DNA from: Streptomyces sp. Q6
Lineage (GTDB): Bacteria; Actinomycetota; Actinomycetes; Streptomycetales; Streptomycetaceae
DNA length: 64,000 nucleotides
Direction: 5' to 3'
Assembly: GCF_036967205.1 (NCBI RefSeq)
Contig: NZ_CP146022.1
Location: 6,634,001 to 6,698,000 of the forward strand
A model generated the notes under the pieces. The model was not told the origin of the DNA, ran no database searches, and was given only the letters and a program-made list of their open reading frames with translations. Position 1 is the first letter of the stretch, and each line of letters opens with the position of its first letter. Positions 9,305 to 62,945 of this stretch are shown piece after piece. The translations under genes and the position numbers were made by a program.

Positions 9305-9346
9305 AAAAAAGGCCCGGGCAACGCCAAACGGCGTTTCCCAGGCCTT
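9305..9346 (-). terminator. Intrinsic terminator in the PTS permease leader
   Basis: On the minus strand a 17-position stem (15 Watson-Crick pairs, one G-T, one mismatch) begins at AAGGCCTGGG and ends at CCCGGGCCTT, with a GTTT loop, and runs straight into a T-tract (plus-strand A-run 9305-9310). This is an unusually textbook Rho-independent terminator for Streptomyces. Its 5' arm shares AAGGCC with the 3' side of the RAT element, so the two hairpins cannot form together. Confidence 0.88.
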
Positions 9347-9394
9347 GCCTCGCCTCACGAGGACGGCGACGTCTTCGTGGGGAGTAACAACCCT
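9341..9394 (-). promoter_or_regulatory. RAT (ribonucleic antiterminator) element for the LicT/BglG protein
   Basis: The minus strand reads AGGGTTGTTACTC on the 5' side and GAGGCAAGGCCT on the 3' side, close to the classic RAT ends GGATTGTTACTG and CAGGCAAAACC. The two sides pair at AGG/CCT and CTC/GAG with the expected asymmetric internal loops between. The apical loop is enlarged by an extra hairpin (CACGA-GAC/GTC-TCGTG, one mismatch), making the element about 54 nt instead of about 30. A TACAGT -10 candidate (plus 9418-9423) would place transcription start about 15 bases upstream. The RAT overlaps the terminator by six bases, which gives the on/off switch. Confidence 0.85.
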
Positions 9395-9467
9395 GTGATC
9401 GGGATCGATCGGCCGTCACTGTACACCGGGACCGGCGGCGTACGGAAGCCCCGTCGAGGCCGCCGCC

Positions 9468-62792: not shown

Positions 62793-62945
62793 CTGGCGAA
62801 CAACCGTACGGCGATTGAAACTGGCAACAACGCGGTCAAGGCCGCGTGCAAGCTCCTCAACGGGGCCTGTAAGGCGGGGATGGTGCCGTGTCGGCGCAGC
62901 ACCATCCCCGCGCGCAGCCCGTTCCGGAGCCGATGCTCACCGGGT

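Follow-up and report, generated by a model that had tools for sequence, protein, structure and literature searches.

The operon formed by a PTS EIIBCA gene and a LicT/BglG-type antiterminator gene in Streptomyces sp. Q6 is very probably (about 90%, judged from sequence) controlled by a LicT/BglG-type switch, in which a ribonucleic antiterminator (RAT) hairpin in the leader overlaps an intrinsic terminator; we infer that control is exerted by antitermination. The window, i.e., the whole stretch of 64,000 nucleotides that was analysed, carries the operon on its minus strand. The RAT, the overlapping terminator, the EIIBCA gene, and the LicT-type gene were conserved together, which supports the likely mechanism proposed in the earlier note. 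Newly found were an apical arm of the RAT that is clade-wide, near-silent in predicted energy, and covarying in the larger size class, and a link of this operon to Brachybacterium.

In the leader of the EIIBCA gene, pattern and fold together placed a 54-nt RAT with the halves GGGTTGTTACTC ... GAGGCAAGGCCT at 9393-9340, where RAT ends had been read before. An intrinsic terminator was predicted by folding at 9346-9305, with 16 pairs, one mismatch, and a T6 end, in agreement with the 17-position stem and T-run described earlier. The terminator folded at -30.1 kcal/mol (z -5.5), and 0 of 200 shuffles were equally good; the RAT alone folded at -24.0 kcal/mol (z -2.5), equalled by 5 of 200 shuffles. 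Since AAGGCCT (9346-9340) belongs to both the RAT 3' half and the terminator, the two predicted structures are mutually exclusive on paper. The RAT has the conserved 5' and 3' halves and a hairpin with internal loops. RATs typically have a short apical loop and span about 29-32 nt overall, whereas the window RAT carries an extended apical arm of 36 nt (9384-9349; 10-20 nt in short RATs), predicted to form 14 pairs with bulges. At about twice the size of short RATs, it fits the earlier estimate of nearly double length, yet within its clade (51-83 nt) it is one of the shorter RATs. In the first 20 kb, a simple scan for terminators returned three sites including this one, compared with 3.7 in shuffles; alone, it would not single out the leader. 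Likewise, the loose pattern TTGTTACN{8,38}GGCAAG is unspecific by itself, because in the window's genome it matched once and its reversed control twice.

On the minus strand, the leader is followed by the EIIBCA gene (9230-7209) and then by the antiterminator gene (7072-6221, GTG start). The EIIBCA product matched Pfam PTS_EIIB, PTS_EIIC, and PTS_EIIA_1 and falls in the beta-glucoside/glucose superfamily. The antiterminator matched CAT_RBD with 61.1 bits (cut-off 25) and PRD with 90.7 bits in two stretches, and the CAT and PRD domains are therefore intact, as had been claimed. In a structure-chain comparison, it matched the LicT chains 1tlv, 1h99, and 1l1c, the last of which we take to be the CAT-RAT complex, and also 1auu. 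Four PRD histidines (H100, H159, H208, and H270), presumably the phosphorylatable sites by analogy with LicT, were invariant in all 52 antiterminators aligned. The score of 198.9 bits against the curated LicT equivalog model was below the cut-off of 300. The protein is a LicT-like member of the BglG/SacY family, and the curated model does not class it as a LicT equivalog. Induction by salicin or cellobiose, which the earlier note had put forward, was not supported: the EII scored 523.9 with the beta-glucoside model TIGR01995, below the cut-off of 614.7, nine flanking ORFs taken from six related loci gave no match to a glycosidase family, and in the record of a plasmid-borne copy of the operon the EII gene is labelled 'glucose PTS transporter subunit IIA'. 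By Pfam, the upstream neighbour on the operon's strand is a P450 gene (p450), and the neighbours on the opposite strand are SelR-domain and Mur-ligase genes. Elsewhere in the window, Rfam matched the Streptomyces small RNA Scr6106 at 62830-62914 on the plus strand (62.9 bits, cut-off 52.5).

A -10 box, TACAGT (9423-9418), lies 24 nt before the RAT, from which we infer a transcript start near 9410. Of 28 leaders (the 27 with long RATs and that of L023, a Streptomyces orthologue with a 38-nt RAT), 25 had TANNNT 24-25 nt upstream of the RAT; in 21 of those 25, the window not among them, TGN came before it. The predicted start coincides with a 5' hairpin, GATCG-ATCC-CGATC (9410-9397). In the 27 long leaders, 95.6% of its cells were paired, and the mean stem was 5.1, compared with 3.2 in shuffled sequences; in the short class, the hairpin was weaker and less regular, with a mean stem of 4.2 versus 3.1 shuffled and 3.7 further upstream. 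Two sister Brachybacterium have both sides of one of its five pairs changed. Because the stem, not the letters, was kept in these two, we prefer to read GATCGATCTCGATC as an RNA hairpin rather than as a DNA operator site. Most long-RAT leaders had a short hairpin from the predicted first nucleotide, and some short RATs were preceded by other hairpins. By eye, the 5' end could also pair at long range with sequence past the terminator, but L020 lacks this pairing and the idea was dropped. Directly before the ATG, the ribosome-binding site is enclosed in the loop of a hairpin, GATGC-GAGGAA-GCATC (9246-9231); at least 4 of the 5 pairs of this hairpin were present in 25 of the 28 clade leaders, and it may add a translational layer of control. 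Immediately past the T-run stands GTTGCCC (9304-9298); of the 14 other leaders of Streptomyces orthologues, 12 share it by eye, and it was also seen in the distant L018 and L033. Rfam returned no family at the gathering score for the window leader, with chance-level matches only (E up to 5), and no family for the leaders of four relatives.

We then examined how widely the switch occurs. CAT_RBD was matched in 17 of 392 Streptomyces genomes, with a single match in the window's genome, consistent with the view that BglG-type control is rare in Streptomyces. Fifteen of the 17 genomes, including the window's, carry orthologues, the other fourteen being 77-88% identical to the window protein; the remaining two proteins are distant (35% and 30% identity). 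The long-RAT pattern TTGTTACTN{31,61}AGGCAAGRCCTGG was found in 13 of the 392 genomes and its reversed control in none. It occurred in 13 of the 17 genomes with a CAT-domain gene and in 0 of the 375 without one. As for the CAT genomes lacking the pattern, one has TTGTGAC, one has a short RAT, and two are those with distant proteins. An exact pattern searched in 395 family genomes matched the window alone and was too narrow, and a short-RAT pattern gave no match in 198 phylum genomes and hence is uninformative on long versus short RATs. Two further loci were noted. Near the EII gene of L018, a Streptomyces whose antiterminator is distant, two short RAT-like sites stand close to each other, one on each strand. 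In Streptomyces sp. NBC_00536, a linear plasmid of 267 kb carries a further copy of the long-RAT operon (L116, NZ_CP107820.1 35443-38624).

Species genomes were also scanned with an antiterminator alignment, and the best 80 of 189 relatives were used, the more distant ones lying outside the sample; together with the window and 16 further genome stretches, they made up 97 sequences. A RAT was called when the motif, with at most three mismatches in all, was followed by a T-run. By this rule, 75 of the 97 sequences had a RAT, corresponding to 62 unique leaders. In this sample, with its best 80 of 189 relatives, 27 of the 62 unique leaders had a long RAT (51-83 nt), from 23 Streptomyces and 4 Brachybacterium, and 35 had a short RAT (28-38 nt), including one distant Streptomyces. 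The extra apical hairpin first noticed in the window was thus recovered in 27 leaders, all from Streptomyces or Brachybacterium, and the search for the same RAT with its extra stem in other Streptomyces was positive in 23 of 24 orthologues, L023 (38 nt) being the exception. Three mismatches were needed for L056 (long) and for L089, L103, and L106 (short). The 22 sequences without a RAT by this rule were 18 Bifidobacterium, L057, L058, L095, and L033; the short RAT of L057 was missed because its T-run is broken, L058 and L095 have little sequence ahead of the antiterminator gene, and L033 is a distant Streptomyces. Loss of conservation of the RAT and terminator arms in homologous leaders, which would have spoken against the switch, did not occur.

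In the antiterminator tree (52 rows), Streptomyces and Brachybacterium were grouped with support of 99/95, and with Dermabacter at 100/100. Streptomyces was nested in Brachybacterium, with B. phenoliresistens as its sister (100/99), and a Brachybacterium clade, a group named after the tree had been seen, was rejected with an AU p of 0.005. The EII tree (41 rows, L058 being left out as too short) also joined Streptomyces and Brachybacterium (100/100), and the two groups were sisters in 100% of 200 bootstrap trees, on a branch with 92/74. Horizontal transfer of the operon between the Brachybacterium and Streptomyces lineages is well supported by these trees. The support does not extend to its direction, for the antiterminator tree nests Streptomyces and the EII tree makes the groups sisters. 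The RAT extension of B. phenoliresistens aligned with that of Streptomyces, and a short RAT is present in B. nesterenkovii, which the antiterminator tree places outside Streptomyces and B. phenoliresistens.

Next, we looked for covariation in the hairpins. The 80-83 nt class comprises 17 of the 27 long leaders and does not include the window. Across its 26 pairs, 96.1% of cells were paired, and no more than 55.7% when partners were slid. Eight of the 26 pairs were changed on both sides, compared with 3.6 in shuffles, and 19 cells were so changed, compared with 5.4; in both counts, 0 of 500 shuffles were as high. These numbers lean towards structure, since the shuffles ignore relatedness and the structure was drawn from nearly the same alignment. 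Three of the eight pairs lie in the upper RAT stem and five, of 14, in the two helices of the arm. Without L031, the count of two-sided changes over the remaining 16 leaders was still 8 pairs and 18 cells. Further pair types in this class were no more numerous than in shuffles, of which 331 of 500 were as high. In the window's own 51-54 nt class of four leaders, 95.8% of cells were paired (3 of 71 unpaired) and no pair was changed on both sides, so that covariation is silent on the window's own arm. Pairing of the extra hairpin, as described in the earlier note, thus gained compensatory support in the 80-83 nt class and none in the window's four-leader class; these counts cover the two classes, with the other six long leaders outside them. 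Over all 27 long leaders, 97.2% of the cells of the terminator and the 5' hairpin were paired and 6 of 20 pairs were changed on both sides, 5 of 15 in the terminator alone; further pair types were not above shuffles (182 of 500 as high). By eye, the 80-83 nt arms of the relatives share a GA / GCYYGA internal loop in 15 of 16 rows (alignment A4, columns 16-19 and 64-71), which to us recalls the kink-turn consensus; the window RAT lacks it. The arm was not taken to be coding, since length differences of one or two bases occur among the RATs.

Furthermore, we compared the predicted energetics of the two classes. For the RAT alone, the long and short classes averaged -34.4 and -9.6 kcal/mol, and for the terminator, -30.0 and -26.4 kcal/mol, respectively. 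When the RAT base was forced and compared with the free fold, the values were -11.2 (sd 0.9) for long and -10.2 (sd 1.0) kcal/mol for short RATs, a switch difference of ~1 kcal/mol (p 2e-5). This difference seems to track one base of the switch (GGCCT versus GACCT) and not the arm: in the five long leaders that have GACCT, the values were -9.4 to -9.6, within the short range (-8.6 to -12.3). The increment from the lower RAT stem was -4.8 in long and -5.0 in short RATs, while the arm differed by 26 kcal/mol on average. In the predictions, the arm is folded in both the terminator and the antiterminator states. With this and the similar switch energy with or without it, stabilisation of the antiterminator is probably not how the arm acts; as far as protein-free energies predict, the arm would be near silent for the balance. 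It may instead act kinetically, serve as a site for binding or processing, or be nearly neutral. Differences in the CAT domain between the long and short classes were set aside as confounded with ancestry.

The switch would work as follows, with phosphorylation control and the substrate carried over from LicT/BglG by analogy. When the sugar is absent, the EII would phosphorylate the antiterminator on its PRD and the protein would stay unbound; the nascent leader would then adopt the terminator fold, and transcription would halt at the T-run. When the sugar is present, a dimer of the protein would bind the RAT and keep GGCAAGGCCT in the antiterminator, the terminator would be blocked, and EII and antiterminator would be produced. 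The apical arm lies above the part of the RAT that the CAT domain reads. As it is folded in both states, the arm would be expected to leave the balance as it is; its role may be kinetic or accessory, or it may be tolerated because an apical loop is permissive. In L023, with its 38-nt RAT, the arm would be dispensable.

Several readings of the arm were weighed. The best-surviving one, at somewhat under even odds, is that it was inserted into a permissive apical loop with almost no selective effect and stays paired only because GC-rich RNA left unpaired would misfold; the spread of lengths from 51 to 83 nt, the 38 nt of L023, the nearly unchanged switch energy, and the absence of compensatory changes in the window's size class fit it, whereas the compensatory changes in the arm helices of the 80-83 nt class and the presence of a long arm in nearly all Streptomyces orthologues and four Brachybacterium argue against it. 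More tentatively, the arm might be a second regulatory element present in both RNA states and read by RNase III/AbsB, a second protein, or a pausing RNA polymerase, in which case one leader would join control by a PTS sugar to a second input. Taken singly, such roles appear rather unlikely. Polymerase pauses have a consensus of G at -10, T at -1, and G at +1, which could be read at the RAT end, and the arm hairpin ends ~10 nt before CCT|G, so a pause there might give the protein time to bind; however, most short RATs share the same end letters without an arm, and the RAT 3' half would still be within the polymerase. A processing site or a binding site for another factor such as RNase III is comparably doubtful: the arm is a long helix, and the available text of a study on E. 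faecalis describes RNase III cutting the nagY RAT hairpin and cooperating with NagY (PMC12502629), but that evidence comes from outside Streptomyces, and the window arm is short and bulged. As for the whole leader, it is highly improbable that it is an ordinary terminator between the P450 gene and EIIBCA, with the RAT match a by-product of the stem sequence, for although the terminator is strong alone and the P450 gene lies upstream on the same strand, the RAT 5' half is outside the terminator and conserved while sequence further upstream varies, long RATs co-occur with CAT genes, and a -10 box is placed 24-25 nt ahead of the RAT.

The operon offers sequence evidence for LicT-type protein-directed antitermination operating in Streptomyces. 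Among the literature matches listed (titles and starts of abstracts, with subscription papers mostly outside), none described a RAT in Streptomyces or an apically extended RAT. The long, medium, and short RATs on close proteins, including L023, form a natural series for testing the effect of an apical extension on an RNA switch, and the leader could possibly serve as a sugar-inducible part for Streptomyces engineering.

Antitermination by LicT, BglG, and SacY is the classic RAT-terminator switch of B. subtilis and E. coli, and the window operon shares with it the CAT domain, two PRDs with four histidines, the RAT halves, the overlapping terminator, and the adjacent PTS EII gene. It differs in its 54-nt RAT (51-83 nt in the clade), in which a paired arm replaces the short apical loop, in its Streptomyces host, and in having the EII gene first and the antiterminator second. 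The E. faecalis nagY-nagE system, in the available texts of PMC9981650 and PMC12502629, likewise has a RAT overlapping a terminator, compensatory stem changes, and autoregulation, but its RAT is a divergent one of 32 nt, and RNase III cleavage was shown there. In C. acetobutylicum, the RATs of bglGTH, as the available text of PMC12628678 gives them, have the halves GGATTGTTACTG ... CAGGCGAGACC with 6-7 nt between; like here, such halves occur, the terminator includes the RAT 3' end, and the PTS is of the beta-glucoside type (in the window, at the level of the superfamily), whereas that operon has two RATs and places the regulator gene ahead of the transporter gene. Also close are the EIIBCA-LicT operons with short RATs in Propionibacteriaceae, Cellulomonas, Schaalia, and others, which share the RAT core, the terminator overlap, related genes, and a similar switch energy; unlike the window, they have RATs of 28-35 nt without the extra arm.
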